64,000 nucleotides of DNA from Petrosia ficiformis (Eukaryota > Porifera > Demospongiae > Haplosclerida > Petrosiidae), in assembly GCA_947044365.1 (NCBI GenBank), contig OX345645.1, positions 6,081,741 to 6,145,740 of the forward strand. Reading direction: 5' to 3'. Position 1 is the stretch's first letter; each line of letters starts with the position of its first letter. Shown here piece by piece: positions 6,997-39,100 of the stretch. The position numbers and the translations under genes were made by a program. The notes under the pieces were generated by a model, which worked only from the letters and a program-made list of their open reading frames with translations, had not been told where the DNA came from and made no database searches.

Positions 6997-7273
6997 ATGA
7001 TTGATCTCATACAATGGAGAGTTTGTATTGGAATGTGGTGTTGTTGTATGAAGTCTGTCAAGAAGAAAAGCAGATTCATTAATAATATACAAAGTCATCC
7101 ATGTATACAATGGATGGATGATTATCACTGGGAGAGCGAAAATCTTGGAATGTGTAGAAATATTCTTGGAACATTACTCAGTCGTACTAGTGTGTGGTTG
7201 TATACACTAACTGTGTGTATATTTCTACTACTGATACTCTCTGGTGATGTGGAATCAAATCCTGGACCTGTGG
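6997..7273 (+). CDS. NLR-B exon 1: N-terminal 2A/signal-like peptide
   Basis: The exon encodes 92 residues plus one base. The start ATG lies just after a conserved CATACAG|ATATTCATA context shared by all four copies. The peptide has a basic patch (KSVKKKSR), a hydrophobic run near residues 66-82 (SVWLYTLTVCIFLLLILS) and the 2A motif GDVESNPGP ending at residue 91. In 2A peptides the ribosome fails to form the Gly-Pro bond, so translation would split between G90 and P91. The donor (G|GTTAGT) falls two codons later, making this a dedicated 2A exon. The hydrophobic run could also act as a signal or anchor segment. Confidence 0.85.
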
Positions 7274-10200: not shown

Positions 10201-13200
10201 TTATATTGCATAGCAATGATAATTATCAATGACAAGGAGGAAGATCCCAGACTGAAACGTCTAAAGACAGATGTGTCTTATAATATACTAATACATTCAC
10301 ATAGGTTTGTCATTGGTTGGTGTCTTACCATCTAAAGAACACATTTCTGATACTGGGAGATTTAATAGAGAATTGTATGATCGATATCTTCAGGAACCTG
10401 TAGTACATAATGACTTGGTAAGCCAACGTATTAGTGGAGATAAGTTTGGACAACTGGGACTCATCATGGGACATGGAGGATATCTTTCTGAATCAGATGG
10501 AATGAAGAGGTCATGGGATATGTTACGGGGGAAATTAGATAGTATAATGGATGTTTCAGAAAAAATAGATATACAAGATGTACTGAAACATAATGATGAT
10601 AATAGACCAATCAAAGTAGTAGTTGATGGTCCTCCAGGTGTAGGGAAAACTACACTTTGTCATAAACTGTGTAACATGTGGGCTAAAGATGAACTGAAAA
10701 AATGTTCTTTCGATCATGTCTTCCTTCTTCTTCTCAGAGATGAGAGAGTAACTTCAACTCAAAACATATATGATCTTGTTTCTTTATTTCATTGCAGTAA
10801 AAAGCTTTGTAAAACTGTTAGTGATCACATTATGGAAACAAATGGTAAAGATACTTTACTAATATTCGATGGATGGGATGAGTTTGAGGGAAGAAACAAA
10901 GACGGATCATTTATACTGGATATTATTAGAGGAAAACACCCACTAAGGTGTAATATAATGGTAACTTCACGTACATATGCTTCAGCAAATCTTCTTGAAA
11001 TACAAAATGTTAATCGTCATATTGAAATATTAGGTTTTGAGAAGAGTGAGATTATCTCGTATATCAAGAAAGAGCTGACCGAAGAGAAATCTGAACAATT
11101 AATAAAGAAATTGGAGACGAGGGAAGATGTCTTATCAATGTGTTATATACCTTTTGTATGTTCCATGCTAGTGAGAATCTATCACAAGTTTGACTATACT
11201 CTACCAAACACTCTGACTGAATTGTATCGAAAGTTCATTATTTATGCTATGAAAAGATCAATGAACAGACCAGGATTTAATCCAAGAAGAATAGAATCAC
11301 TTGATAATTTACAGGAAGATCAGAAGGCATTTGATGAACTTTGTTATTGTGCTTACGTGAACCTTCAGAAAGGAAGTACTAATTTCACTGAAGATCAGAT
11401 ACAGTCCTCCAAGTGTAAACACTTTGGATTAATGAACTTCTACACAATAGCAGACACCACTCTATATCAGTTTATTCATCTAACCATTCAAGAGTTCCTG
11501 GCAGCATGGTGGATATCTCAACAAAAAAACCAGAATGAGCTGTTTAGTGAACATTTCCAGGATATTCAATTTTGCATGACTCTAAGATTCGTGGCAGGTT
11601 TGACTAAACTTAAAGATGACAGCTATCAAAAGTATTTCAGAAAAGAGGTGAACATGCAATGTGTAAGGAAACCATTGTTTGGTTTTCAATCTCATCAGTC
11701 CTCTGTGTTTCATCGAAATCCACAGATGCTTCATGAATGCATTTCTGAACGACATTGGAATCAATATCCTCTTCATGAACGTTATAATACAGATACTATA
11801 CAATTACTTCATCTAATTTATGAGTCACAAAACATAATATTGTGTAAGATATTTGCTTCTTGCTTTAAAAACTCCTCTCTCTGTGTAGATAGAGTAATAT
11901 CAACACAATTTGATTTACAGTGCTTGAACTTTTTCCTGAAGAACTCAAAGAAATCATGGAATTGTCTCTGCCTTGCAAATGATGATCACAAGCACATGAT
12001 AATTGATGAACATATAGGCACTTGTATTATGATGAAAGCAGACTTTTGCAGTATCACATCAGTAATAAAGAATCAACAGTCATTGTTATACAACTACCTT
12101 CAAGAGATTTATGTTAATATTTCTACCCAGACTGATGTCACACATCTTTATATGTTTACAGACCTGCTTAAACTGCCTCATTTGAATATTCTGCACGTTA
12201 CTATTAGTCTGTTGAGCAATACATCAGAAAATTATATTGATAGTGAATTACTGGAGAAAGCAATTTCCACAAATCATAATATTAGTGAATTGTTATTTAT
12301 TTTATCTCATAAATCCGTATCCAGCGCATTAATAAACAGTATTCTTACTGGAGTAAAGAAAAATGATACAATCCAGTTCTTTTCCCTATCATGCAGCAAG
12401 CTGTGTGATGAAGTTGCTTTCTCGCCATTGCAATTTGATGAACTGTTGAAAAACAATCAAACTTTACAAGCTGTAGAACTGGATATACCTATTAAAGGAA
12501 TTCTCCCATCTCCATGTATCATAACAGTCAATGAGTCTCTTACAGCACTAAATATCACTAATATATCTGATATCGTACAATCTCTTGCAAATGAAACAAA
12601 AACTTTGCCTGCTGAATTAAAAATATTTCTAACCTGAAAAGTCTGTCCCTACAAGAACCACAGACACCACTCTGCGACTTGCTTCATTCCAACCAATTTC
12701 TACAACATCTAGATATAGTACTAGAGAAAGAAGAAAGCTTTGTTGAACTATTTAGGATTCTCTCCAGTAACAAAACTATAATAGCTCTTAGAATAAGAAA
12801 GGGATCAACGTTTTTTGTGATACATGAGGAAGTAGGAGAATGTTTTCAACTGATGCTATCATCAAATCAAACTCTACAATGTCTGGAGATCCAATGGCAA
12901 TCCATGCCCATGGAATACCTGATAGCTGGACTGAGAGAGAACAACACACTAAAAGAACTAGACATAGACTGTACATTCACAGAAAATGTTGAAGAATTCT
13001 TTGAAGCTACAAACAATCTAAAAGCATTAACAGTGTCAATTTATGAATCGTCATGGAAGATTTCAAAGACATTTATGTCATGGTATTGGGAAGAGATAAT
13101 TCCTAACGCTACAGACATATTAAAAAGAAATAAAGACATGAAGTTCCTGAATATTAAGTTCTTTCTGGATCGTCGAAGCGTTACAGTTACTATTAAAGAT

Positions 13201-18113: not shown

Positions 18114-18381
18114 ATGATTGATCTCATACAATGGAGAGTTTGTATTGGAATGTGGTGTGGTGGTATGAAGTCTGTCAAGAGGAAAAGCAGACTTGTTAGT
18201 AACATGCAAAGTCATCCAGATGTGAAAGATTATCACTGGGAGAGTGATAATCTTGGAGTATGTATGAATATTCTTAGAGCATTACTCAGTCATGGTAGTG
18301 TGTGGTTGTATATACTAACTGTGTGTATATTTATACTACTAATACTCTCTGGTGATGTGGAATTAAATCCTGGACCTGTGG
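18114..18381 (+). CDS. NLR-C exon 1: 2A/signal-like peptide
   Basis: 89 codons plus one base. The hydrophobic run reads VWLYILTVCIFILLILS and the motif is GDVELNPGP: leucine replaces serine at the variable position while D, V, E, N, P, G and P are kept. The exon is undamaged although the rest of the copy is broken. Confidence 0.8.
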
Positions 18382-18470: not shown

Positions 18471-18755
18471 AGATTACTCCTGGGAAAGCAGTAATTCTGC
18501 TCAGTGATTGTGGATTTAACTTTAAGAGCAATTGGAATCGATTAACAAGTATCTTGAATGTTCCATTAGAGCTAAAGGGAAAGATGAGAGCTATAATAAA
18601 GGAAGATGAAGCATATGAATATGTAATAGAAATAGCATTGGATTGGTGGATTAAGAACACATCAGAAGCATCATGGAAAGAGTTAATATCATCAGTAGAC
18701 AGGTGTGGAGAGAAAAGTACTGCAGATGCAATGAGGAAAAAAATTATTGAAAAAG
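18471..18755 (+). CDS. NLR-C exon 2: death domain
   Basis: 95 codons, open, starting EITPGKAVILLSDCGFNFKS and carrying DWWIKNTSEASWKELIS. The downstream donor is weak (G|GTGATT, against GTAATT or GTATGT in the paralogues), another sign of decay. Confidence 0.75.
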
Positions 18756-19239: not shown

Positions 19240-22200
19240 GTGTGTCTTTAGATGTCTTATCATCTGAAGTCATTTCTGATACCAAGAGATTTGTTAGAGA
19301 ATTATGTGATCGATATCTTCAGGAACCTGTAGTACATAATGACTTGTTAGACCATCGTAATAGTGGAGACAAGTTTGGACAATTAGGACTCATTAAAGGA
19401 CATGGAGGATGTCTTTCTGAATCAGAAGGAATGAAGAGGTCATGGGATATGTTACGAGGGAAGTTAGATAGTATAATGAAAGTATCTAAGAAAATAGACA
19501 TACAAGATGTACTAAAACATAATGATGATAATAGTCCAATCAAAGTAGTAGTTGATGGTCCTCCAGGTGTAGGAAAAACTACACTATGTAAAAAAACTGT
19601 GTAACATGTGGGCTAAGAATGAACTGAAGAAATGTTCCTTTGATCATGTCTTCTATCTTCCTCTCAGAGATGAGAGAGTAACTTCAGCTGAAGGTATATA
19701 TGATCTTGTTTCTTTATTTCATAGTGATGAAGGGATTTGTGATGCTGTCAGTGAACAGATCAACAAGACAAATGGTAAAGATACTTTACTTATATTTGAT
19801 GGATGGGATGAGTTTGAGGGAAGACACCAACACAGATCATTTATACTGGATATTATTAGAGGAAAACACCCACTAAGGTGTAATATAATGGTTACTTCAC
19901 GTACATATGCTTCAGCAAATCTTCTTGAAATACAAACTGTTGATCGTCATATTGAGGTGTTAGGTTTTAAGAAAAGTGAAATTTTCTCATACATCAAGAA
20001 AGAGGTGACTGAAGAGAAATCTGAACAATTAATAATGAAATTGGAGATGAGAGAAGATGTCTTATCAATGTGTTACATACCATTTGTATGTTCCATGTTA
20101 GTGAGAGTTTATCATCTGTTTGACTATACTCTACCAAACACTCTGACTTAGTTGTATCAAAAGTTCATTATTTATGCTATGAAAAGATCAATGAACAGAC
20201 CAGGATTTAATCCAAGAAGAATAGAATCACTTGATAATTTACAAGATGATCAGAAAGCATTTGATGATCTCTGTTATTGTGCTTATGTGAATCTTCAGAA
20301 AGGAAGTAATAATTTCACTGAAGATCAGATACAATCCTCCAATTGTAAACACTTTGGATTAATGAACTTCTACACAATAGCAGACACTACTCAATATCAG
20401 TTTCTTCATCTAACCATTCAGGAGTTCCTGGCAGCATGGTGGATATCTCAACAAGATGATCAGAAAGAGCTGTTTAGAGAATATTTCGAGGATATTCGGT
20501 TTCGTGTGACACTAAAATTTTTGGCAGGTCTAACTAAACTTAAAGATGAGAGCTATCAAGAGTATTTCAGTAAGGAATTGGACTTACAATGTGTAAGGAG
20601 ACCAGTGTTTAGTTTTAAATCTCATCAGTGCTCTCTGTTTTATGAGAATCCACAGATGCTTCATGAATGCATTTCTGAACGAGATCAGAATGAATATCCT
20701 CTTCATGAACGGTATGATACAGAGGCTATACAACTGCTTCATCTAATTTATGAGTCACAAAACAAAATATTGTGTCAGATATTTGCTTCTTCCATTAAAA
20801 ACTCCTCTCTCTGTCTAGACAGAGTGACTTCATCACAATTTGATTTACTGTGCTTGTCTTTTATCTTGAAGAACTTAAAGAAAACATGGAATTATCTCCA
20901 CCTTGGAGATGTCAAGAACCACACGATAATTGTTGAACATGCAGAATTTAACAGTTGTACTACTGTGAAAGCATACTATTGGAGTATCACATCAGTAATC
21001 AAGATTCACCAGTCATCATTATGTAAGTACCTTCAAGAGAGTTATATTAGTATTTTTAGCCCATCTGATGTCACACATCTTCTCTCGATGTTCACAGACC
21101 TGTTTAAACTACCTCATCTGAACATTCTGCATGTTACGATCAGTCTGTGGAGTAATACATCACAAAATTATAATGATGATGAATTACTGGAGAAGGTAAT
21201 TTCTACAAATGATAATATTAAGGAATTATTCATTTCTTTTTTGAATATACCACAATGTAACACATTAATAAACAGTATTCTTACTGGAGTAAAGAGAAAT
21301 CATACAATCCAGTTCTTTTCACTGTCATGTGATAATGTTATTATCTCATCATTACAAGTTGAGGAACTATTGAAACACAACCAAACCTTACAAGCTGTTA
21401 AACTGAATATACCTATTAAAGGAATACTCCCATCTCTATGTATCATACCAGTTAATGAATCTCTTACAGCGCTAAATATCAGTAATGATACAGTACATGA
21501 TATCATAACATATCCTGTAAAGAAAACAGAAACTTTGTCACCTGGATTAGAAAATGTTGGAAGAAATATTACTAACTTGAAAAGCTTATTCCTACAAGAA
21601 CCACAGATACCACTCAGTGTCTTGTTTGATTCCTACCCTTTACTACAACATCTAGATATAGCGCTAGACAGAGTAGAGAGTTTTGTTGAAGTATGTAACA
21701 TTATCTCCAGAAACACAACTATAAAAGCTCTTAGAATTACAACTGGATATTCATTAGACAGGCAGTTTGTGTTCCACGAGGAAGTAGGAAAATCGCTTCA
21801 ATTGATGCTATCATCAAATCAAACTCTACATTGTCTGGAGATCAAAAAAGAAGAAACCATCCCATTTTTGTTTGTTTTACCTCTGAAATACCTGACTGCT
21901 GGACTGAGAGAGAACAACACATTACAAGAACTAGACATTGACATTACAACCACGGAGAATATTAAAGAGTTTTTCGAAGCTACTAAAATCTAAAGTTATT
22001 GGCAGTCTCATTTTATGAATTGCTATTATGGAAGATTTTAGATGAGAAGTTTGCGTCATTGTATTATGAAGAGATAATTCCGCATGTTACAAATATGTTA
22101 AAACGAAATGAAGACATAATGTTTTTGAAACTTTTATTCCATTATATTCCACACACTGCAGTTACATATAAAGAAGATTGGATACCAGTGGTACATCAAT

Positions 22201-22388
22201 TCTGGGAAACTGTGTTACTACATTCATCATTATTTTATATATATGTTGACATTTCAAACCAACTTATGATAGACATACTAAACAATATGAAGAAAATACT
22301 GATTACTCAACGTGAAGAAAAGAAACTTGGTTCTCCTCCACTAGTAGAAACGAGAATCGAACATGGATATCCTGACAAATTATTATAA
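19240..22388 (+). pseudogene. NLR-C NACHT-LRR exon with three lesions
   Basis: Reading is open to 19604, where the added A just after the Walker A codons shifts the frame. It resumes from 19606 with TLLIFDGWDEFEG and the sensor region. A stop interrupts at 20149-20151 within TLPNTLTELYQKF, and the frame continues to 21993. A 1-base deletion precedes the last piece (21999-22388), which ends with the family tail REEKKLGSPPLVET. Confidence 0.9.
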
Positions 22389-22739
22389 TGAACATCAAAC
22401 TACTGTTAGCTATATAGTTACATGTGTAGTGATTTGTAGTAATATTACATTATTATATAATTCAAGTATTATTCTGGGTTTCATACAGAAAAGTAGGTGG
22501 GGAGGCTGAGGCTCAAGTTAGTCGGAAAATCCCCACTTCCCACTGTATAAAACCCTGTCTACTGTGACTTTTTTTACTAGCAGCTTCATCACTGGTAGTC
22601 TTGTGTAGCCAGACCCAACCCTCTGCTAGGATGATATCGATAAGGCATTATTAGGAACATGATATATTGTACGTGTAGACAGTAGACATGATCAACACTG
22701 AATAATGGAAGATTCAAATTAAATAGGATCTTCGAAGAC

Positions 22740-22857
22740 TTCCATATTTCAACTTCACAAGAAAGTAACAATAAACTACTGAGTCCATGGTCATAAGAAA
22801 CTCCCAGGCTATTAAAAGATCTTTCTAATAACTTGCAAACATTTACTGAACTAGAGT
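22740..22857 (-). pseudogene. Ankyrin-gene exon fragment
   Basis: On the minus strand this reads VNVCKLLERSFN, then YDHGLSSLLLLSCEVE, homologous to the exon at 33032-33252. The donor there (ATAT|GTAAGT) is ATATGGAAGT here, so the splice site is lost. Similarity extends to about 22570 in the adjoining intron. Confidence 0.6.
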
Positions 22858-23295
22858 CTATTGGGTACTGAGAGATAAGTTTCTAGTATCATCTATCTAG
22901 TGGACGTACATCTCTTTTTTAGTAGATTAGTCTCGTCCCAGACCTTCCACAACTGGTCTGGGGACGAGTCTAGATCACTAATGACCACACCTATTGTAAG
23001 CTGATACAGGGTAAGTATTTTAAGATAGTCCATAAATTATACTGACACATTCTAAATGGAGTTGAAATAATGATTGTAGATCTATTAGTATAAGTTAATT
23101 ATAGATAATTAGATACCAATAATTATTTTAATAAATGTTTGCTTCTATGATTATAACATCATTAAGACCTTTTTAATACTTATATGGTAGATATTAGTAT
23201 CTGTTATTGGTAGATACCGTCGGTTTATCTAAAACACACTGAACAGACAAAACAATTACAGTAACTCTCCTATGCTGATCAAGGGTAATATGCTG
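22858..23295. other. Intergenic, upstream of NLR-D
   Basis: AT-rich with a short inverted pair around the word GTCTCGTCCCAGACC and its partner GGTCTGGGGACGAG (about 22932-22972). No gene is seen. Confidence 0.4.
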
Positions 23296-23345
23296 ATTCA
23301 GATACTGTAATGATAGTATTATTTATTTCCATACAGATATTCATA

Positions 23346-23619
23346 ATGATTGATCTCATACAATGGAGAGTTTGTATTGGAATGTGGTGTGGTATGAAGT
23401 CTGTCAAGAGGAAAAGCAGATTCGTTAATAATATACAAAGTCATCCAGGTATACAATGGATCAAAGATTATCACTGGGAGAGAGAAAATCTTGGAATGTC
23501 TACAAGTATTCTTGGAGCATTACTCAGTCATACTAGTGTGTGGTTGCATACACTAACTGTGTGTATATTTCTACTACTGATACTCTCTGGTGATGTGGAA
23601 TCAAATCCTGGACCTGTTG
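23346..23619 (+). CDS. NLR-D exon 1: 2A/signal-like peptide
   Basis: 91 codons plus one base. An in-frame ATG at 23310 lies before the conserved acceptor-like CATACAG (23330-23336) and is probably intronic, so the start shared by all copies (23346, MIDLIQWRVC) is preferred. The hydrophobic segment VWLHTLTVCIFLLLILS leads into GDVESNPGP, with the predicted skip between residues 89 and 90. Confidence 0.85.
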
Positions 23620-26600
23620 GTTAGTTATTAATTATAATACTAAATACATGTAAATAACAAGTGTATAATTTATAGAGAAAAAAAAACATCCCTATGATTG
23701 CTTTACAAATTTAAGTGAAGATAAAAGTATCCCTATGATTGCTTTGTGGCGTCCAGCATTCAGTAATCATGGCTGACTTTATCAAGCATGAACTTATCTA
23801 CTCTCCTGACCTTTCAAAGGACCTTGTAGAACTTTAGGAATATATTTCAGGCAGAATAGCTAGCTATTAGTTCCAGTTTCTACGTAAGCTACTTAGCTAC
23901 AGGCAGTTTTCTTTCTGCTGGTCTATAGAGCTCGAGCGCACGTTCTTTTACGCGCCACACCCATTAATTGACCGAGCCCCTGGGAATGACGCAACTTCCT
24001 TAGCTACGTATACAACGCATACTCGCGCAAGGACACAAGAATATATATATATATATATATATATATACATTAAACCCCGTGGAAAGCAATCATAGGGATG
24101 GCCCTACAAAACTCTGTAAATATTATTTAATGCTTTATTTACTTTTAACAGCAATTACTCCTGGGAAAGCGGTAATTCTGCTCAGTGATTGTGGATTTAA
24201 CTTTAAGAGCAATTGGAATCGATTAACAAGTATCTTGAATGTTCCAGTACAGCTAAAGGGAAAGATGAGAGCTATAATAAAGGAAGACGAAGTATATGAT
24301 TATGCAATAGAAATAGCATTGGATTGGTGGATTAAGAACACATCAGAAGCATCATGGAAAGTGTTAATATCATCAGTAGATGAGTGTGGAGAGAAAGATA
24401 CTGCATATGCAATGAGGAAAAAAGTTACTGAAGAAGGTAATTATTAATTATTTATAAACATAGTTTGACCGCTCAAACACTTTTATGGAATGAAGAAGGG
24501 TACATATATAGATAGAAAGCTTGTTTTGTCAACCATCATCACATTCCACACTGGACGTGATCAGAGACTATTAAATTTAATGTAGGAATGTATGAGCTTT
24601 TCTTTCAAATTCTCTGTATTAGAACAATTGCTCATTTATACAGAGCTAATGATGTTTTCACCTGAAGTTAATGATATCATAATTATTAGTGCTTTTAATT
24701 TATATATAATAATTATTATACATATATTAGGTGAAGTCAGAAGGAAGAGATGTGTCGGAAATGAAACACTAGGAGCAAATCCTTCTATTTTGGATGTAGA
24801 AGATTATCCTCCAAGTGAAAAAGGTATAAATTACTATAACTAGACAGATGATAATCATTGGTCAGAAAAGCCTGAGGAAGGAAGAATTGCATCGAATAAA
24901 TAACTGAGTAACAAAGTAAAATCACATTACATTCATAGACCAGGGGCTTTATCAGGCTAACCCTAATTATTAGTGGCCTGTGGTTTGCTAAAGTGCTAAA
25001 TAGGTTACTATGGAAACACGCAGTCTAAACTATTGCAAGCTTTGTGGAAAGCATTTCAGCTCATTCCTAATGAGTATTTTCAATTTTTGTGGCATGTTGA
25101 AACATGTTTGGAATCTTATTAAATAAGTCATGCTAATGGTCCAACAACTGAGTTAGTATTAGTAATGATTAGTAGTCAATATTACAGAAGTAATGAGTAT
25201 ACTCAAATATTTTGATAGTATTGCTCATCATTATTGATGTGTACAACTTGAAACAAAGGTTAGGGATATTAGTACTACTGTTCTATCATATATTCTTGTA
25301 CATTTATAAATCTATTACATATATACAGTACATCATGATGTTATAATATCAGAATCTACAACTAAGAGGAAGAGATGTGATGAAGAAGAAAGATATTCAT
25401 GTGCAACTCAATCTGATATTTATATTGTGGAATCAGAGGATGAATCCCGACATCCCAAGAGGAGTAAACAAGGTTATAATAATTATGTTAACTTAATACC
25501 TTTGTATCAAGTAGGGCTGGGCGATAGTGCTACTATCACTATCGCGATATTTTATTCCCATACTATCGCGATAGTGAATATACTGCGATAGTACGATGTA
25601 ATGTCTGTGTATATTAATCATTACTTTTGAAGGTTATAAATTTAATAATAAGTAATTATAAGACAAGTGATCTTTACATTTAAAGTTTAAACTAGTTTAT
25701 ATCAAATTTTCTGCTAGAAAGACTAGCATGTTTACGTTGTCTGGTAGTAGACATGCTCTTTGGTAGTGATAAAAAACACTGTTGTTAGGTGAAGTCGTAA
25801 ATTTAAAGTGTTCCCACTCTATTGGAACAAGCTTCCAATGCACTTTACTTCCTTTCTTTTTATCTTGTTCAATAATTTGCCCATCTTTAGAGGAAGAACC
25901 ATAGTGTTTCCATACTGGACTGCTTCTAAAGGTAATTCCATTCTATTTGTTGACATAATAAGTCAGCAATTACACTATACAAAATGTTTACAGAAGATGG
26001 TAATAATGTGGTTTACAGGCGGTTTTAATTTATACAATGTGGTTTACTTAAGTGTACATAGTGCTCATGCTCAAAACAACACGTGGATACTATCGCGATA
26101 GTAGTAACAGTTAATATCGCGATGGTGATAGCTGTTTACTATCGCGATAGTGATACTATCGGTATTTCGCCCAGCCCTAGTATCAAGCTATAAACTTATT
26201 CGTGAATATAGTGTAATTTTGTAGATTATTAGTTAATAAATCAACTATAGATATAGGTTTGTACATTCCTTGTATACCAACAGAAACATTAACTCATGAA
26301 CATTATTTTGACTACATGTTCATTTGTGTGTTAATAAACTATACACATTCATGATAATTATTGTTTGATTTCACGACATGTGACATGGCACATTCTATAT
26401 GCAAACCGGATAATATTAATTGGGGCGAGCCTGAGCGAGCCCCACACTAGTGAGGTAGCTGAAAAGTTTGCATTGTATATATATTTGTGTGTTTATATTC
26501 GTACGTTTTCCGTAAATACTTGTATTCCGTAAATATCTTTTAATTTTTATCAATAAAATTTGAGAAAGCCATGTGCTTGCATTCCATTGTTCGTTATGAA

Positions 26601-29600
26601 GTTGAACAGAAAGCTAAATGAACTGCAGAAACTAAAGAGGAGAGAGAGGTGAGATTACGTAAGAGAAGAGAGACTGATAGAGGTCATAGTAATCGAGAGA
26701 GACAGAGGGAGATAAGCTGAGCAAAGCCTGAGAAGAGAGATTGAAGATTATGCTGGAGAGACAAGAGCTATAGAGACAGATTATGAAAGGGAAGTAAGGT
26801 TAGAGAGACAGAGACAGACAGAGGGAGATAGGAGATGTGGAGACTGCTGAGCAAAGAGAAGAGAGATTGAAGATTATGCAGGAGAGACAGATAGAAAGAA
26901 CAGCTATGGAGACTGCTGAGCAAAGTGATCTTCCCGCTAAAGTATTTAACATCAGGGTTTTTCCTACTTACCTTTATTGGTGAAACCTCCATCACTATTC
27001 CATGAACTGTGGCATTTGAATGCTCCTCCATATCTCTTCTGTGCCATCTTCACAGACTTGCACGTGTTCATAATGCATGCGCAGTTGCACACACTCTCGT
27101 CTTACAACCGCACCTTTTTATGTGTTCTCTCTCTCAGGCTTGCCCCACAATGATTATCATTCTCTAGTTATAATTAATATTATATTCATAACTATAACTG
27201 ACTTTATGCTACATCATCATAATTATTAGAAATATTTCTTTGATCTCATTACAGCTTTAATATCACATTTATTACACTCTATAGATGACTCACGTACACA
27301 GGTGTCTTGTGAATCAGATCAGTTAACACCGTTCAAAATATTGAAGAGACATTTCTCTGAAATACTTGATGTGGTCTCTGACCCAAATAGACTTGCTAAT
27401 GATTTGTGGGGTGTTGATCTAATATCTAATGTTGTTAAAGATAATATCATATCTACTCCAAGTGTTCCTCGTTATGAAAAGGCTAGCAAATTACTAAATG
27501 AAGTTCAGAGATCTCTTAAAGTCAATGAAAATCCAAAGACACTCATTTTGATATGTAAAGTATTAACCAATCAGAAAAACTTAGCAATATCAACAATATG
27601 TAAAACTATATTGAAAGAGTTAGGTAAGCTAATAATAATTATGTTAGAGTAACATTCACAGCTAATAAAACTTTATCATATTGTAATACATAGGTGTGTC
27701 ATTGGATGTCTTATCATCTGAAGCCATATCTGATACCGAGAGATTTATTGGAGAATTGCGTGATCGATATCTTCAGGAACCTGTAGTATATAATGACTTG
27801 TTAGACCGACGTATTGGTGGAGACAAATTTGGACAATTAGGACTCATTAAGGGACATGGAGGATGTCTTTCTGAATCAGAAGGGATGAAGAGGTCATGGA
27901 ATATGTTACGAGGGAAATTAGATAATATAATGAATGTATCAGAGAAAATTGATATACAAGATGTACTGAAACATAATGATGATAATAGTCCAATCAAAGT
28001 AGTAGTTGATGGTCCTCCAGGTGTAGGAAAAACTACACTTTGTCATAAACTGTGTAACACGTGGGCTAAGAATGAACTAAGGGAATGTTCCTTTGATCTT
28101 GTTTTTGCTGTTTCTCTCAGAGATGAGGAAGTATCATCAGCTAAAAACATATCTGATCTTGTTTCTTTATTTCATAGCTGTGATAACATGAGTGAAAAAA
28201 TCAAGCAGACAAATGGTAAAGATATGTTAATAATATTTGATGGATGGGATGAGTTTAAGGGAAAAGACCAAAACACGTCATTCATACTGGATGTTATTCA
28301 AGGAAGTCAACTACACAAATGTAATGTACTAGTTACTTCACGTACATATGCTTCAGCAAAACTTCTTCAACTACACAGTGTTAATCGTCATGTTGAAGTA
28401 TTAGGTTTTGAGGAAGAAGAGATTTTTTCATACATTAGGAATGAGCTGACTGAAGATAATGCTGAACAACTAATAGAGGAATTGGAAATTAGGGAAGATG
28501 TCTTGTCATTATGTTATATACCTTTTGTATGTTCCATGTTAGTAAGAGTTTATCAACTATGTGACTATACTCTTCCTAATACTTTGACTAAGTTTTACAA
28601 GAAATATGTACTTTATGCTGTAAAGAGATCAATGAAAAAAAAAGAACTTGATCCAGACACAGTTGAATCACTTGAGGAACTACAAGAAGATCAAAAGAGA
28701 GCATTTGATGAACTTTGTTGTTGTGCTTATGAGAAGCTGAAGACACAAAATACCACTTTCAATAGAAATGAAATACTAAAGTTATCAAATTCATTGAAGT
28801 GGGGACATTTTGGATTAATGAACTGTTACAAGATAGCAGACACCACTAAACATCAGTTTCTTCATCTAACCATTCAGGAATTCCTAGCAGCATGGTGGAT
28901 AACTCACCGTGAGGATCAAAAAGTGCTGTTTGGAGAACATTTCCAGGATATTCACTTTCGCATGTCATTAAGATTTGTGGCAGGTCTGACTGAACTTAAA
29001 GATGATAGTTATCAAGAGTATTTCAGTAAAGAGGTAGACTTGCAGTGTGTAACGAGACCATTGTTTGGTTTTGAATCGCATCAGTGTTCTGTGTTTCATC
29101 AGAATCCACAGATGCTTCATGAATGCGTACAACATCGAGGTAAATATCCTCTTCATCAATCCTGTTATGATACAGATACTATACAATTACTTCATTTAAT
29201 TTATGAGTCACAAAACAAAATATTGTGTCAGAAATTTGCTTCGTCTATTAAAAACTCTTCTATCTGTGTAGATAGAGTGATATCATCACAATTTGATTTA
29301 TTGTGTTTGTCCTTTCTCCTGAAGAACTCAGAAATCACTTGGAATTATCTCCATAATTCTTCATATGTTGATAACATGCTGCAACTTTCCAATGAAGATT
29401 CAAACATGCCTAATTGCATTGTAATGAAGGCAAAATATGATGATATTGCATCAATAATCGAGATACATCAACCAGCGTTTTGTCAATACCTTCAAGAGAG
29501 TTATATCCATTTTTTCCCTTATCCAGATGTTACACATTTTCTCTCAGTGTTCACAGACCTGTTTAAACTGCCTCAATTGAATATTCTGCATGTTACTATT

Positions 29601-30857
29601 AGTCTGTTGAGCAATACATCAGAGTATGATATTGATGATGAATCACTGGAGAAGGTGATTTCTACAAATCATAATATTACGGAATTATTCGTTTCTCTTT
29701 ACAATATACCACAATGTAACACATTAATAAACAGTATTCTTACTGGAGTAAAGAGAAATGATACAATCCAGTTCTTTTCACTATCATGCAATTCATGTGA
29801 TAATACTACTATCTCGTCATTACAAGTTGAAAAACTATTGACAAACAACCAAACCTTACAAGGTGTTAAACTGAATATACTTTCCAAAGAAACACACCAA
29901 TCTCTACGTGTCACACCGTGTATTAAAACACTAGATATCAATATTACAACATATCCTATAAAAAAGACAGACATTTTGTCACCAGGATTAAAAGATTTTG
30001 GGAGGAATATTACTAACTTGAGATGTCTATCTCTACAAGATCCACTGACACCACTCGGTGACTTGTTTGGTTATAACCCTTTTCTACAACAACTGGATAT
30101 AGTACTAAACAAGATAGAAAGTTTTATTGAACTATTTAACATTCTCTCCAGCATCACAACTATAACAGCCCTTAGAATCAGAAATGGATTTTCATTAGAC
30201 AGGCAGTTTGTTTTATGTGATGAAGTAGGGCAATCACTTCAACTGATGCTATCATCAAATCAAACTCTAAAATGTCTGGAGATCAAAATACAAAAGAGCA
30301 TTCTATATTTGCCTGTTTTACCCTTTTTACCTGTAGAATACCTCACTGCTGGGCTGAAAGAGAACCACACTCTACAAGAACTAGACATATACTTTAAACT
30401 CCCAGTACTGAATTTTCGAGAATTCTTTGAAACTACTAATAATCTAAAATCATTGACAGTGTCTTTTTATGAATCGCGATTATGGATGCTTTCAAATGAG
30501 ACATTTCTGTCACGTTATCATGAAGAGATAATTCCTCATATTACATATATGTTAAACAAAAATAAAGACATGAAATTTCTGCAAGTCAAGTTCCTTCTTT
30601 ATGTAAGCTTCAGAATTACTATTAAAGACAACTGGAAAGCAAAGGTACATCAATTCTGGGAAGCTGTGTTACTCCATCCATCATTATGTTATATATATGT
30701 TCACATTTGTAACCAATTTATGATAGACATACTAAACAATCTGAAGGAATCACTGATTGCTCAACGTGAAGAAAAGAAACTTGGTCCACCTCCAGTAGTA
30801 GAATTCGGAAATATAAGTCGTTCAATCTACAAGCCAAGCCATAATTATAATTCTTAG
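23346..30857 (+). CDS. NLR-D: intact 2A / death domain / CARD-like / NACHT-LRR gene
   Basis: Six exons (23346-23619, 24152-24436, 24731-24823, 25329-25472, 27255-27623, 27694-30857) total 4329 bases, 1442 residues plus stop, in frame throughout. Order: 2A peptide 1-91, death domain 92-187, charged linkers to about 265, CARD-like to 388, NACHT with Walker A near 495-502 and Walker B near 566-576, HD2 motif HLTIQEFLAAWW near 779-790, LRR-like repeats to the end. This is the reference copy. By family knowledge NACHT proteins oligomerise on ligand sensing and death-fold domains recruit effectors. The 2A would release a receptor beginning Pro-Val-Ala-Ile-Thr-Pro. Introns carry a hAT-like element (25512-26179), a MITE-D element (23690-24101) and another TIR element (26420-27150). 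Exon joins are inferred from splice sites and phase. Confidence 0.85.
23690..24101. mobile_element. MITE-D element in NLR-D intron 1
   Basis: Ends are CATCCCTATGATTGCTTT (about 23690) and AAAGCAATCATAGGGATG (about 24084-24101). The left end seems partly doubled (a second CCCTATGATTGCTTT at 23730-23744). It shares internal sequence with the copy at 60566-60972 and has an (AT)n tract at 24039-24066. It contributes no coding sequence. Confidence 0.75.
24152..24436 (+). CDS. NLR-D exon 2: death domain
   Basis: 95 codons, phase 1-1, acceptor AACAG and donor G|GTAATT. Key segments are NFKSNWNRLTSILNVP and YDYAIEIALDWWIKNTS, followed by SWKVLISSVDECGEKDTA. It has the same length as in every other copy. 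Confidence 0.85.
24731..24823 (+). CDS. NLR-D exon 3: linker 1
   Basis: 31 codons, phase 1-1, reading EVRRKRCVGNETLGANPS and ending VEDYPPSEKG. It is basic then acidic and probably disordered; no domain is recognised. Its counterpart in NLR-E has one more codon. Confidence 0.7.
25329..25472 (+). CDS. NLR-D exon 4: linker 2
   Basis: 48 codons, phase 1-1, acceptor ATACAG and donor G|GTTATA. It reads HHDVIISESTTKRKR, then IVESEDESRHPKRSKQG. The charged, low-complexity composition suggests a flexible tether; KRKR and PKRSK resemble nuclear-localisation clusters, though this is weak evidence. Confidence 0.7.
25512..26179. mobile_element. Non-autonomous hAT-like transposon with 8-bp target duplication
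   Basis: The element starts TAGGGCTGGGCGATAG and ends with the matching inverse CGCCCAGCCCTA. It is flanked by the direct 8-bp repeat GTATCAAG (25504-25511 and 26180-26187). The matching intron of NLR-E has the uninterrupted site (CTGTATCAAGTTATAAAC near 37872). An 8-bp duplication is typical of hAT elements. Inner sequence is rich in TATCGCGATA palindromes. No transposase is encoded. Confidence 0.9.
26420..27150. mobile_element. TIR element with purine-rich, decayed coding core
   Basis: The ends TTGGGGCGAGCCTGAG (26420) and CTCAGGCTTGCCCCACAA (27133-27150) form imperfect terminal inverted repeats. The core (26590-26930) is rich in GAGAGA and reads as broken charged peptide such as EEREVRLRKRRETDRG, with stops. 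Such Arg/Glu repeats occur in helicase-type mobile-element proteins; that link is a guess. It lies in the intron before the NLR-D CARD-like exon. Confidence 0.5.
27255..27623 (+). CDS. NLR-D exon 5: CARD-like domain
   Basis: 123 codons, phase 1-1, acceptor TTACAG and donor G|GTAAGC. Segments include PFKILKRHFSEILDVVSD, LANDLWGVDLISNVVKDN and YEKASKLLNEVQRSLKVN. The helix spacing and the IL-type first helix fit a CARD or related death fold; the family could not be confirmed without a profile search. NLR-B lacks this domain. Confidence 0.75.
27694..30857 (+). CDS. NLR-D exon 6: NACHT-LRR
   Basis: One open exon of 3164 bases. Walker A is GPPGVGKTT, Walker B MLIIFDGWDEFKG, sensor 1 VLVTSRTYAS, and the HD2 motif HLTIQEFLAAWW is present. 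The C-terminal half has irregular LRR-like units with the pattern NxTLxxLxI (for example SSNQTLKCLEIKIQ, KENHTLQELDIYF). It ends with a tail REEKKLGPPPVVE and extra residues to TAG at 30855-30857. Its middle region is the most divergent of the five copies. Confidence 0.9.
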
Positions 30858-31244
30858 ATAATTTCATTACATTATGGAAGGACATGTTATTCATCAAACT
30901 ACTATTACTGAGTTATAGTTATACGAGAATAATCAAAAAATACTTTTTCAATTAAAAGGAAATAAGATATATTAGGAACATCAAAACCCCAAAACTATAT
31001 AAAAAATTAAACAAACCATGTCTATATAACCCTATATATGTAAGTACTGCTCCTATGCTTTATAATTTTGTAGGTATACACTTATGTAAGTTATATGAAG
31101 TGGTTTATTTAATTTTGGGTCGTATGTTAGCCTCTTGTGTTAGTACCATCCCAACCTATTCTTGGGGTTTTGACAACCCTACATCTTTTGAAAATGTTTT
31201 TTATTATTATTCTTGTTTCCATTGTTTCGTGCATTAATTTTTGA

Positions 31245-31510
31245 TAGTAATATTTCTTACTAGTATACATAATTATAGTCAAGTACATTTGTTTTATCAA
31301 ATGAAAACAATAGTTATTTCAATCATGTATATTAAGTATTATATATAATACAAGTGAATTTCAAAAATTCGTACATTAGTCATCACTCTGTTGTTAGAAC
31401 ATGTGGCTGATTTTTTTGTTACAATGGAATCTTCCAGGCTTCCCAAATAGTAATCTGTTACCGTATTAACTTTATTATAGTCCACAGAAGCCATTCATCC
31501 AATTACTATT
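31245..31510 (-). pseudogene. Truncated copy of the LRRK-like gene 3' end
   Basis: Bases 31252-31470 match 43014-43290, which is the 3' flank and the last codons of the LRRK-like gene, including CGTACATTAGTCATCACTCT at the stop. A further match (TTTATTATAGTCCACAGAAG against TTTATTATAATCTTCAGAGG) continues after an internal deletion. It is a relic left when the NLR plus kinase tail was duplicated. Confidence 0.75.
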
Positions 31511-31971
31511 ATATGAGACGTAATTCTATTAATGTGTAATGACTAATATTCGTGTTATTATAATTTCTTGGATAAATAATTATAGTTATAAAACTTATTG
31601 TACCACTACACCTCCACTCACTTTCATGACAACTTGTTGAGTGCATATAATATGTATTTCTTTTTTGTTAATTTCATACTTATAAGTTATGTATTAAACA
31701 GATTTTCTACATGACCAAAGCTAGGCAGCCATTGCCATACTATTAACGTTAACAGTATTCAGTGGAGTAAGAATATGTATAGCTAGCATGGTATCCACAT
31801 GTATGTAGCTATATATATGTGTGTTTAAGGGAGGGCATATTGCCCTCCAACACTGTATATTATAATATAAGCTGAGAGCTTTTAACTATAGAAATACCTT
31901 CAAATAAACAATAAAGATGTTACATACGTTTGGCAAAAACAAAACAAAGAACTCAAGTTTTCATTACAGTT

Positions 31972-32138
31972 GTAAAATGCTACATTTTTACACTATCATG
32001 TATGTTAATGAATTTCTTCATACACTGTAAAAATTAATGGGTTGTTTTAACACACATTTGCTTATGCAGTGTATTGCAGCTTACAATTATTGTAAAATAC
32101 TACATTTTTGCACTATCATGTATGTTAATGAAATTCTT
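31972..32138. repeat. Direct repeat pair, about 119 bp apart
   Basis: The word TACATTTTTACACTATCATG and about 27 further bases recur with few changes at 31972-32019 and 32091-32138. The second copy lies at the 3' edge of the ankyrin pseudogene. Confidence 0.6.
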
Positions 32139-33252
32139 GGTACGAGAGAGGAAGAGGATAGTGCTGTAACAATTATCTTTTTTATGTCTACATTATCTGT
32201 AGAGTGTATAGGATCAAGTCCTTTAGAATTAACTACATCTGGATGAGTACCATGAGGAGGATGATCAAATCGAAGACCACACTCTGCCTTTTCTTCCAGT
32301 ATCTCTGCAAAGTGTTCTCTAAATGGTTCAGGAGGTAAATAGTTAAGAAGCGCTTGGTATTTTAGGGACAACCTGTGCCTTTGAAAACTACGAGAATCTT
32401 TTGCAGTAGAGAAACATTCCCGTACAATAGGTGAGGTATTTTTTAAGTACAATGAACAACCACCATACTGAAGTTGACCATGAGTATCATAGTCAAGAAA
32501 AACACCATGAGAGAACAATTCTTCTAAATAAACTAATGGATAAGTACATCTATCAGACGACATAAGGCTCAGTAAACTATTTCCATATATATCACAAACA
32601 TATGGCCGTGCATCAGCATCTAATAGTAACTTAAAAATAGATATATTCAAATTATAAATAACCACTAACATTAGGGCACTATATTCATCCATGTCTCTGT
32701 GGTTAACATTAGCTCCAACACCAATGAGGTACTCGGTAACCTCTTCACTCCAAACAGCCAGCATTAATGGAGTACGACCACAACAGTTTACAACATCTAC
32801 TGTGGCTCCATGCTGTACAAGAAACTTAACAATATCAAGACTGCAATTCTCAGCTGCTATATGTAGAAGAGTGTTAGTTCAACAAGTATTAAGATCACGA
32901 TTTTGTACAACTGTAATTTTTTTACTAGTAGGTTTATCACTGTATGATAGGGACAATGGAAAACAATATATATTGTATGTGTAGACATGATCTAATGGAA
33001 GGCTCAAATTAAAAGATATTCAAAGACTTACATATTTCCAACTTCACAAGAAAGTATCAATAAACTACTGAGTCCATGGTCAAAAGAAACTCGAGTAAAA
33101 GATTCTTTTTGTCTGTCTAAAAACTTACAAATGTCTACTAGACTACCAGTACTGTTTTTCTTCCAGTTCAAGTCAGAGACTTACTCATGTTTGAACAATA
33201 GACTGTAGAGGGAAAGATGATCAGAATATAAAATTACATCACCAGTGGCCAT
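32087..33252 (-). pseudogene. Ankyrin-repeat protein pseudogene
   Basis: Minus-strand exon 1 (33252 to 33032) starts MATGDVILYSDHLSLYSLLF and has an in-frame TAA after KHE before continuing DLNWKKNSTGSLVDICKFL; its donor is ATAT|GTAAGT. Exon 2 (about 32896 to 32087) has a TGA just before TNTLLHIAAENCSLDIVKFL, then ankyrin repeats (GRTPLMLAVWSEEVTEYLIG, VGANVNHRDMDEYSALM) and a C-terminal region LLNYLPPEPFREHFAEILEE. The exons do not join in frame. Two nonsense codons and the phase mismatch make it a pseudogene. A second fragment of exon 1 lies at 22740-22857. Confidence 0.7.
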
Positions 33253-35860: not shown

Positions 35861-36137
35861 ATGATTGATCTCATTCAATGGAGAGTTTGTATTGGAATGT
35901 GGTGTGGTGGTATGAGCTCTGTCAAGAGGAAACGTAGACTAGTTAATAAACAATATAACATGCAAAATCATCCAGGTGTGAAAGACTATCACTGGGAGAA
36001 TGAAAATGTTGGGCTATGTATGAATATTCTTAGAGCATTACTCCGTCATACTAGTGTGTGGTTGTATACACTAACTGTGTGTATATTTCTACTACTGAGA
36101 CTCTCTGGTGATGTGGAATCAAATCCTGGACCTATGG
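35861..36137 (+). CDS. NLR-E exon 1: 2A/signal-like peptide
   Basis: 92 codons plus one base. The hydrophobic run is VWLYTLTVCIFLLLRLS, with arginine replacing isoleucine two residues before the SGDVESNPGP motif. The next residue after the skip proline is methionine (NPGPM), not valine. The arginine slightly weakens the hydrophobic core. Confidence 0.8.
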
Positions 36138-39100
36138 GTTAGTTCTAATATTATACTACTAGACACACATAATAGAATATACATGTCACAAACTGTATAT
36201 ATAGATATTATTTATTCCTATTTGCTTTTACAGAGATTACTCCTCCCAAAGCTGTATCACTGCTGTATTAATGTGGATTTAATTTTAAGAGCAAGTGGAG
36301 TTTGTTATCAAGTATCTTGAATGTTCCAGTAGAGCTAAAGGGAAAGATGAGAGCTATAATAAAGGAAGATGAAACATATGAATATGCAATAGAAATAGCA
36401 TTGGATTGGTGGATTAAGAACACATCAGAAGCATCATGGAAAGTGTTAATATCATCAGTAGACAGGTGTGGAGAGAAAGATACTGCAGATGCAATGAGGA
36501 AAAAGATGAGTGAAGAAGGTAATTATTAATTACTTATGAACAAAGTATGACACATTATTGTAATTTATGGAGTGAAGAAGGTACATATAATTATTTATCA
36601 CCTGCTATCACCATGCATATTAAAATAGAAAGCTTGTTTTGTCAACCCTCATTACATTTCTAGACTGGATGTGATCATATATAGACATTAATTTTAATGC
36701 AGGAATGTATGACCTCTTTTCATAAACTACAGTTCTTTGTGTCAAACATTTGCTCATTTAGACAGAGCTAATGAAGATTTGTCCTAAAGTTAATAATGTC
36801 ATAATTATTATGTCCATTTAATTTATACATATTTATTATATACATATATTAGGTGAAGTTGGAAGTAAGAGATGCGTCAGAAATGAAACGCTAGGAGCAA
36901 ATCCTTCCATTTTGAATGTAGAAGAAGATCATCCTCCAAGTAAAAAAGGTATAAATAGACAGATGATAACACATACACCTGGCTCACCCTGCTACAGTGC
37001 TAACAAGGTTACTATGGAAACCACATACAGTCTAAACTATTGTGCCCCTTTGTGGAAAGATGTATAGCATACACTTTAAAGACTACCTTGTTTTAAATAG
37101 ACATACACTCCTATCGAACATTTGCAACATAAATATTTTGATGTCTAATAATTTTGTAGTGATAGGCAATACCGAGAATTTACACATTATTATGAGTACT
37201 GAGAATGGGACAAACCTGAGCAAGGAAGAATTGCATTGAATAAATAAGCAACTGTCCATTGAAGTCACATTTAACTGAGTAACAAAGTTAAATCACAGAA
37301 CTTACATAGACCTGGGGCTTTATCAGGCTTGCCCCAATTATTAGTGGTTTGTGGTTTGCTACAGTGCTAAATAGGTTACTATGGAAACCACATACAGTCG
37401 CAAGCTGCATTTCAGCTCATTGCTAAAGTATTATTTGATACTAACATGAATATTTTCAATTTCTGTGGCATGTTGAAACATGTTTGGAATCTTATTAAAT
37501 AAGTCTTGCTAATGGTTCAACAGCTATATACTCAGAGTGATGATATTAGTATTGTATTGATTAGTAGCCAATATTACAGAAGTAACAAGTATACTCAAAC
37601 ATTTTGCTTATCATTATTGATTTGTACAACTTGAAACAGAGTTTAGAGATATGTGTACTACTGTTTTATCATATATTCTTGTACATCTATTACTTATATA
37701 CAGTACATCATGATGTTATGATACCAGAATCTACAACTAGGAGAAAGAGATATGATGAAGAAGAAAGATATTCAGGTGCAACTCAATCTGATATGTTTAT
37801 TGTGGAATCAGAGGATGAATCCCAACATCCCAAGAGGAGTAAACAAGGTTAGAATACCTGTGTTAACACCTCTGTATCAAGTTATAAACTTTTTTGTGAA
37901 TATTATAGTGTAATTTAGGTTTGTACATTCCTTGTGTACCAACAGAATCATTAACGCATGGACATTATTTGGAGTACATGTTCACTTGATACTTATTTTT
38001 TTATTTCATGTTTGCCTGTACACTTATATATTAATAATAATTAAAATCATAATTATTCATAATCGCTTAATATTTCTCTGATACCATACAGTTTCAATAC
38101 CACTGAAACCACACTCTATAGATGACTCATGTACACAAGTACATTATGAATCAAATCAGTTAACACCATTCAACATACTGAAGAGACATTCCTCTGAAAT
38201 ACTTGATGTGGTCTCTGACCCAATTAGACTTGCTAATGATTTGTGGGGTGTTGATCTAATATCTAATGTTGTTAAAGATAATATCATATCTACTCGAAGT
38301 GTTCCTCGTTATGAGAAGGCCAGTAAATTACTGAATGAAGTTCAGAGATCTCTTAAAGTCAATGAAAATCCAGAGACACTCATTTTATTATGTAAAGTAT
38401 TAACCAATCAGAAAAACTTAGCAATATCAACAATATGTAAAACTATGTTAAAAGAGTTAGGTAAGCTAATACTATAGTAAAATAGAAAGGTTTGTCATAA
38501 TTATTCACACAGGTGTGTCATTAGATGTTATAACATCTGAAGTCATTTCTGATACTGAAAGATTTAATAGAGAATTACGTGATCGATATCTTCAGAAACC
38601 TGTAGTACATAATAACTTGTTAGACCAACGTATTGGTGGAGACAAGTTTGGACAATTAGGACTCATTAAGGGACATGGAGGATGTCTTTCGGAATCAGAA
38701 GGAATGAAGAGGTCATGGAATATGTTACGAGGGAATTTAGATTGTATAATGAAAGTATCTAAGAAAATAGATATACAAGATGTACTGAAACATAATGATG
38801 ATAATAGTCCAATCAAAGTAGTAGTTGATGGACCTCCAGGTGTAGGAAAAACTACACTTTGTCAAACATTGTGTAACATGTGGGCTAAGAATGAACTGAA
38901 GAAATGTTCTTTTGATCATGTCTTCCTTCTTCCTCTCAGAGATGACAGAGTAACTTCAGCTGAAGGTATATATGATCTTGTTTCTTTATTTCATAGTGAT
39001 AAAGTGATTTGTGAAGCTGTCAGTGAACAGATCAACAAGACAAATGGTAAAGGTACTTTACTAATCTTTGATGGATGGGATGAGTTTGAGGGAAGAAACA

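Follow-up and report, generated by a model that had tools for sequence, protein, structure and literature searches.

Does a short exon at the front of a sponge immune-receptor gene cause the ribosome to finish one protein and begin another, and, if so, what becomes of the two products? The question arises from a forward-strand open frame at 23346-23619 of a 64,000-nucleotide stretch of Petrosia ficiformis DNA (the window), which ends in a 2A core and precedes a death-NACHT receptor (NLR). The exon is probably an active 2A/StopGo leader, its sequence pointing to a released, tail-anchored leader with a job of its own and a cytosolic NLR. Ribosome skipping with separation of the two products at the leader 2A is in itself very probable; because we infer both the tail-anchor fate and a function for the leader, we hold the combined reading with less confidence than skipping alone.

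The leader exon and its 2A core

The frame can be written MIDLIQWRVCIG...LLLILSGDVESNPGPV/G or MIDLIQWRVCIGMWCGMKSVKRKSRFVNN...SHTSVWLHTLTVCIFLLLILSGDVESNPGPV/G, and its end, LLLILSGDVESNPGP with a further codon and the first base of the codon after it, is directly followed by GTTAGT, a phase-1 donor at 23620. The initial annotation had described a dedicated exon ending in a 2A core, and the frame reads as claimed, with a correction to the exon start: the acceptor ..tttccatacag/ places this at 23337, 9 bases 5' of the ATG, giving an exon of 23337-23619 (Table 1). A CAG or TAG lies within 20 nt 5' of the ATG in 61/61 leaders (leaders shorter than 60 aa and six leaders of the C3 type, from a diverged NLR set on contig C3, were omitted from this count), which is a weak test, the triplet being common by chance. 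Conservation alone, among 34 close copies, gives the same borders as the splice signals. At the 5' border, nucleotide difference rises from 0.07 over the 12 nt that precede the ATG to 0.60-0.68 upstream of -24; at the 3' border, it rises from 0.07 in the first 12 nt past the donor to 0.55 from +24.

The core itself is far above chance. Searched as a 24-nt DNA pattern through the 191 Mb genome, D[V/I/M]ExNPGP matches at 205 places and its reverse at none, and about 0.07 matches are expected from the base composition of the window. The exon has the sequence features of StopGo, namely an in-frame (D/G/C/N)(V/I)ExNPGP core and an L-rich run ending in (A/S/C)G; the annotated full core and the L-rich run ending in (S/C/A)G upstream of it are both present.

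Table 1. Features of the leader exon, of the receptor gene model and of the other leader exons in the window
Feature	Position	Strand	Basis or remark
5' exon edge (ATATTCATA) after acceptor ..ttatttccatacag/	23337..23345	+	implies a further exon upstream
Start-codon box MIDLIQWRVCIGMW (M-I-D-x-x-Q-W-R-x-x-I-G-x-W)	23346..23387	+	conserved columns across leaders
Variable, net basic leader middle	23388..23537	+	highest pN and pS of the exon (family A); charge
Hydrophobic stretch, residues 65-81, VWLHTLTVCIFLLLILS	23538..23588	+	17-residue Kyte-Doolittle maximum
2A core G-D-V-E-S-N-P-G-P	23589..23615	+	pattern matches; core kept across loci
Predicted skip point	Gly (23610-23612) / Pro (23613-23615)	+	
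Phase-1 intron 1 (GTTAGT...AACAG)	23620..24151	+	
Death-domain exon	24152..24436	+	Pfam in relatives, AlphaFold, Foldseek
Exon 3, linker	24731..24823	+	predicted from GT/AG and phase 1
Exon 4, linker	25329..25472	+	predicted from GT/AG and phase 1
Exon 5	27285..27623	+	without a Pfam match at E up to 1
Exon 6: NACHT (about 27999-28454), NLRC4-HD2-like region, C-terminal region	27694..30857	+	
Second leader-2A exon	6997..7272	+	death exon 7385-7666; NACHT 10370-11401
Third leader-2A exon	18114..18380	+	death exon 18473-18751; NACHT split in two, with stops
Fourth leader-2A exon	35861..36136	+	death exon 36236-36517, one TAA; NACHT 38572-39594

The leader is a near-fixed first coding exon of one NLR family

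Joining frames at GT/AG sites gives six exons and five introns, all phase 1, that encode 1432 aa without an internal stop. In this model, the gene would have a death-linker-NACHT order with the leader as its predicted first coding exon. Exon 2 is a death domain, judging by Pfam matches in relatives and by the fold of its model. Pfam Death matches at E up to 1 occur in 10/17 family members (best 9.4e-5), and none is found at that threshold in the window copy's own death exon. Its AlphaFold model has six helices (pLDDT 92), and the best Foldseek match is the death domain of FADD (TMq 0.73, probability 1.00, E 0.13), with none at E <= 0.001; a death-exon profile searched against solved-structure sequences returned 15 matches at E 0.09-0.93, which include cullins and CBFA2T1/AML1-ETO and no death domain. 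Exon 6 contains a NACHT domain (E 4.8e-24), an NLRC4-HD2-like region (5e-5, yet below its cut-off) and a C-terminal region with a weak LRR match alone (LRR_6 E 0.38). With the gene model, the Pfam matches in relatives and the FADD fold match, the joining of the leader to a death domain, in frame at phase 1, is supported, and the receptor that skipping would free is predicted to begin, as proposed, at the death domain, with Pro-Val-Ala.

Just 3' of this NLR, an ankyrin-repeat-like open frame, read from the frame alone, lies at 32087-32878 on the reverse strand. A caspase (Peptidase_C14) match at 8386-9018 falls between the death and NACHT exons of the first 2A-NLR of the window, and caspase matches are likewise placed in some C3-type NLRs (e.g. 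C3:1287227).

Four leader-2A exons lie within the window, at 6997, 18114, 23346 and 35861. A protein search of the genome with the leader returned 83 rows, merged to 81 loci, of which 62 were read (50 by place, 8 search loci and 4 in the window) and 19 left out. Downstream of 77/81 loci, a death exon lies within 2 kb on the same strand, and 62/81 have a listed NACHT exon within 15 kb. Counted from the receptors, a leader is present in the 15 kb upstream of 65/69 close NACHT exons, although the clusters are dense and a few leaders may belong to a neighbour. The start-codon box likewise lies within 5 kb upstream in 27/30 members of the C3 set (NACHT 39-43% identical), one Helitron-type box on C3 having been left out of the count. 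These 69 close and 30 C3 exons were drawn from 117 NACHT rows, the other 18, second fragments or distant rows, having been set aside. A 2A lies within 2 kb upstream of 22/38 death exons on contigs C1 and C2; 15 of the 16 without one are only 27-44% identical to that of the window, and the other, C2:2594344, is 72% identical. As the death exons lacking a 2A are mostly distant, the leader is near-fixed in one NLR clade and not found on every death-domain gene.

A leader of about 90 codons is thus the near-fixed first coding exon of one NLR family, and the joins and the shared history of the two exons fit this. A phase-1 GT lies within 16 nt of the core in all 69 leader ends examined, and in 62/69 the frame runs on into all or part of a death exon; acceptors for these were chosen by score and are sometimes a later AG than in the window gene model, and the count includes the partial death exons of L056, L066 and the window copy at 35861. 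The other seven are six copies without a usable match and an ankyrin gene. Leader and death-exon distances correlate across 61 genes (r 0.94; 0/2000 permutations as high) and within family A (r 0.52, 36 genes), and from this co-variation it follows that leader and receptor stayed together as sets A, B and C diverged. Most members of this receptor clade, roughly a hundred genes, appear to carry a 2A in one animal genome. Leaders of set A2 (SGDVE[KQ]NPGP; C1:12804524, 15096209, 53818877 to 54660515 and others) also have a death exon; no NACHT exon is listed within 15 kb of them. A search of a protein database for spliced leader products used a 187-aa query, with length limits that full-length NLRs exceed, and the 29 of 79 matches examined were all unspliced ORFs.

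Selection on the leader and its predicted fate

Judged from coding sequences, the 2A core is kept at the protein level. It is present in 50/50 loci picked by homology and not by motif, as DxExNPGP in 49 and as DVETNPGL in one (L085, in a gene whose NACHT exon has two stops). Across 65 distinct leader CDS, D is invariant and the last P is found in 64; E, N, P and G are invariant by construction, the search expression having demanded them, and the fair conservation figure is therefore 50/50. Synonymous codons vary within the core (Glu GAA/GAG 50/15, first Pro CCT/CCA 57/8), and pN/pS in 34 family A genes is 0.23 for the last nine leader codons versus 0.57 for the death exon.

The start of the leader is also conserved. 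In 15 hand-picked leaders (A1, all having box and 2A), M1, Q6, W7, R8 and G12 are invariant, and a second invariant block, L, G, D, E, N, P, G, P, lies at the leader end; M1, Q6, W7, R8, G12 and W14 are kept in 65/65 distinct CDS. The start-codon pattern M[IV]xxxQWRxxIG has 189 matches in the genome and 0 reversed. The pN/pS of the box is 0.19-0.20 in sets A2, B and C. The family A box has pN/pS above 1 (1.9-2.6) because synonymous change is nearly absent there (pS 0.010-0.015 versus 0.180 in the death exon), and nucleotide-level constraint or gene conversion may lie behind part of its conservation. Between box and core, in the leader middle, pN (0.168) and pS (0.248) are the highest within the family A exon. 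Conservation of the N-terminal box suggests a separate function for the leader peptide, which is probably not waste.

A hydrophobic stretch precedes the core throughout. All 64 distinct leaders reach a 17-residue Kyte-Doolittle maximum of at least 1.6. Its first residue lies at 47-72 (median 60), and 4-11 residues (9 in 47/64) separate its end from that of the core; the net charge before the stretch has a median of +4. In family A, pN/pS of the stretch is 0.91-0.99, with no purifying signal, so that residues change freely and hydrophobicity stays. The initial annotation had called the stretch signal- or anchor-like; its presence holds for 64/64 leaders, and the signal-peptide part of that description does not, as a hydrophobic segment within the first 31 residues occurs in 0/64. 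Lying just before the skip site, the stretch gives a released leader a tail-anchor-like layout. We would thus expect the released leader to be tail-anchored, and a signal anchor to arise only on the unskipped product.

The mechanism that we propose runs as follows. The ribosome would omit the Gly89-Pro90 bond, setting free a leader of 89 residues that ends in ...NPG, and translation would resume with a receptor running from Pro-Val-Ala at the death domain. At release, the hydrophobic stretch would be about 8-24 residues from the peptidyl-transferase centre, inside the exit tunnel, whose length is enough to hide it; as it would still be in the tunnel, the signal recognition particle (SRP) should not have met it. 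Once free, the leader would have this stretch about 8 residues from its C-terminus and behave as a tail-anchored membrane microprotein, and the NLR would be cytosolic. Where skipping fails, the stretch would leave the tunnel later and serve as a signal anchor, with a minor share of the receptor tethered to the membrane. If the leader is tail-anchored, cytosolic receptor and membrane peptide would be made in fixed proportion, a new way of coupling the two.

That minority product might instead be the purpose, with incomplete skipping splitting one NLR between the cytosol (skipped) and the membrane or secretory route (unskipped). The 2A occupies the same NLR position as those of sea urchins, reported to target in this dual manner in HeLa and plant cells (PMC4981915), the hydrophobic stretch is present in all 64 leaders, and NLRs with transmembrane domains are mentioned for sponges (PMC12909245). 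However, the stretch is not N-terminal, its median start at residue 60 being unlike the 26-aa sea-urchin signals, and in vitro efficiencies of almost 100% are reported for some canonical 2As (PMC12846837), a level at which hardly any product would stay unskipped. On our analysis, dual targeting as the purpose of the 2A is a serious alternative, if less likely than not.

A tail-anchored leader and a cytosolic receptor also have to be set against readings in which skipping matters little or the receptor is not joined to the leader. The 5' end of the exon could be mainly an RNA element, for example one controlling translation start or splicing, with the 2A only tidying the N-terminus. Family A box codons are indeed nearly free of synonymous change (pS 0.010 versus 0.180 in the death exon), but they differ between sets (AGA/AGG 55/10, GGA/GGT 56/9) where the residues stay, Helitron-type boxes have the same residues with other codons, and positions 20000-32000 of the window have no Rfam match above the gathering score; we consider an RNA element improbable. 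It is somewhat less probable still that the 2A does nothing and is left over from a transposon-derived exon, surviving only because the genes duplicated recently. Non-LTR-like elements and Helitrons of the same genome do carry 2As, and family A is young (death-exon pS 0.18). Set B and C leaders, only 35-41% identical to that of the window, nevertheless keep the core with synonymous codon changes, and the single proline loss (L085, NPGL) falls on the gene with two stops in its NACHT exon. Finally, translation of unspliced family A RNA would meet a stop two codons past NPGP (V-G-stop) in most copies, as would suit a separate small gene or an intron-retained ORF that is not the first coding exon of an NLR; the universal phase-1 GT (69/69), the in-frame death exon in 62/69 and the co-divergence at r 0.94 make this the least credible of the alternatives, and a stand-alone peptide has no need of the last proline.

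Other carriers of the leader and known 2A systems

N-terminal 2As on NLRs are already known from the sea urchin Strongylocentrotus purpuratus (Roulston et al. 2016, PMC4981915), in which they are reported for about 35% (85/241) of NLRs, the 26-aa form being found in 14/87 current entries; one sea-urchin NLR 2A is reported to be about 80% active in vitro (PMC4981915). The two systems share a core at the N-terminus of death-NACHT receptors, a hydrophobic run before it and the potential for one transcript to yield two protein forms. The sea-urchin form is described as a true 26-aa N-terminal signal sequence (PMC4981915), whereas the leaders here have 69-97 residues and a start-codon box, with the hydrophobic stretch only near their C-terminal end, and form a separate phase-1 exon. 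Also unlike the sea-urchin case as described (PMC4981915), the sponge 2A is near-universal in its NLR clade (65/69 close NACHT exons) and occurs on a non-NLR gene and Helitrons.

Outside NLRs, the plan is the same: an M[IV]xxxQWRxxIG box, a variable middle, a hydrophobic stretch and a 2A. At L029 (C1:19145274) and L104 (C2:12149541), leader and 2A are followed by a phase-1 intron and then by a frame starting GT(N/S)VITKVLLKVL. The intron of L029 has 71 nt and its frame continues into ankyrin repeats (Ank_2 E 1.4e-23); for L104, the start of the downstream frame alone was read. At least two more 2A sites with the codons of the ankyrin gene, C2:12112400 and C2:12195640, are among the matches listed.

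Helitrons, which are gene-capturing transposons, also carry the leader. At L096 (192-6929; C2:14082391-14089128), a single intact Helitron frame of 2246 aa without an intron runs from QWR box, hydrophobic stretch and 2A through DUF6570, OTU (4e-6), Helitron_like_N (1.9e-33) and PIF1 (5e-20) to an endonuclease (Exo_endo_phos, 6.7e-8). With Rep/helicase, OTU and endonuclease domains together in one frame, it is what we take to be a Helentron-type Helitron. Its QWR-IG box, hydrophobic stretch and 2A follow the plan of an NLR leader; the difference is that they are contiguous with the transposon frame. C1 and C2, the contigs that these class counts cover, have 86 2A sites. Of these, 22 precede a death exon and 14 precede Helitron domains, with the box present in 21 and 11, respectively; the remaining 50, outside both classes, comprise 17 with the box and 33 without. 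A 2A lies within 6 kb upstream of 9/61 Helitron_like_N matches on these contigs, whereas 200 shifted controls average 0.21 such matches and never exceed 3; the other 52, many of them fragments, have none within that distance. L018 is a 2A-DUF6570 element without the QWR box. Nine further 2A sites were read, seven without the box, one in an ankyrin gene and one outside known classes. Downstream of L097-L103, the sites without the box, comes non-LTR-type sequence that is cysteine-rich and PHD-like, endonuclease-like or both, as read from the frames alone, L102 being broken.

The QWR boxes of Helitrons and host genes are likely to be homologous, judging from their sequences. An HMM of the host box, with the 2A and hydrophobic parts removed, matches one Helitron-type family (three near-identical copies) at E 3e-4; the other Helitron-type boxes score 0.017-0.24, no improvement on the top scores among 7500 shuffled sequences (0.018-0.035). 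As the HMM separates so few of them, the link between host and Helitron boxes rests on a fixed motif at a fixed distance from the start codon. The Helitron leader has 48 candidate relatives among other long proteins, none of which reached E <= 0.01. A viral origin of the whole leader was considered and rejected, 23 stretches matching one 2A-region pattern in viral contigs having no tblastn relative.

The same leader on NLRs, an ankyrin-repeat gene and Helitrons suggests a reusable translation module, with Helitrons as its possible carrier. More tentatively, and with rather less than even confidence, we propose that this is one homologous mobile module exchanged by Helitrons and host immune genes. 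In host genes, it would have become a phase-1 exon before at least two unrelated proteins (death-NACHT and ankyrin). In each case a tail-anchored microprotein, whose conserved N-terminus has a function of its own, would be released first and an effector beginning with Pro would follow, giving a cellular system of transposon type that makes two proteins from one frame.

Two other kinds of 2A invite comparison. Odon et al. in 2013 reportedly described 2A-carrying APE-type non-LTR retrotransposons, in which, as here, an L-rich 2A precedes the first large domain, and such copies are found in the same genome. Unlike NLR leaders, the non-LTR-like copies read here have no QWR box, nor do they form spliced exons in host genes. 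Viral StopGo/2A motif classes 2 and 6 share with the leaders an LLLLSG-like upstream hexapeptide and D at p12, and S at p15 is found as in these classes in most family A copies (PMC12846837). The L-rich (A/S/C)G context of the leaders matches these upstream motifs, for which an association with D at p12 and with S at p15 is reported, as is support of StopGo in vitro by the class (PMC12846837). Viral 2As separate parts of a polyprotein, whereas here the 2A ends a cellular single-exon leader.

Cellular use of 2As is described as very rare (PMC12846837). The same source mentions a profile search across viral and cellular proteomes by Rao et al. 2025, which may list sponge cases; the main texts of four StopGo/2A papers (PMC12846837, PMC4981915, PMC11512398, PMC8623073) contain neither 'sponge' nor 'Amphimedon', and '2A-like' and 'NPGP' are absent from a sponge NLR paper (PMC12909245). 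No paper in the literature searched combines 'helitron' with '2A-like', though sponge or Helitron 2As may be mentioned by Odon et al. (2013) or by Yuen et al. (2014). What appears to be new, an earlier listing being possible, is the distinct leader architecture, its near-universal presence in a large NLR clade and its sharing with an ankyrin gene and Helitrons. The clade offers a natural test of what a 2A does when it opens an innate immune receptor, and of what role the released leader has.

A profile search with the A1 leaders returned at least 767 proteins at E <= 0.01 from 8000 candidates scored. One protein from an ENA contig, P0079, has a caspase-like piece in place of the QWR box, together with the second half of the leader and the 2A.
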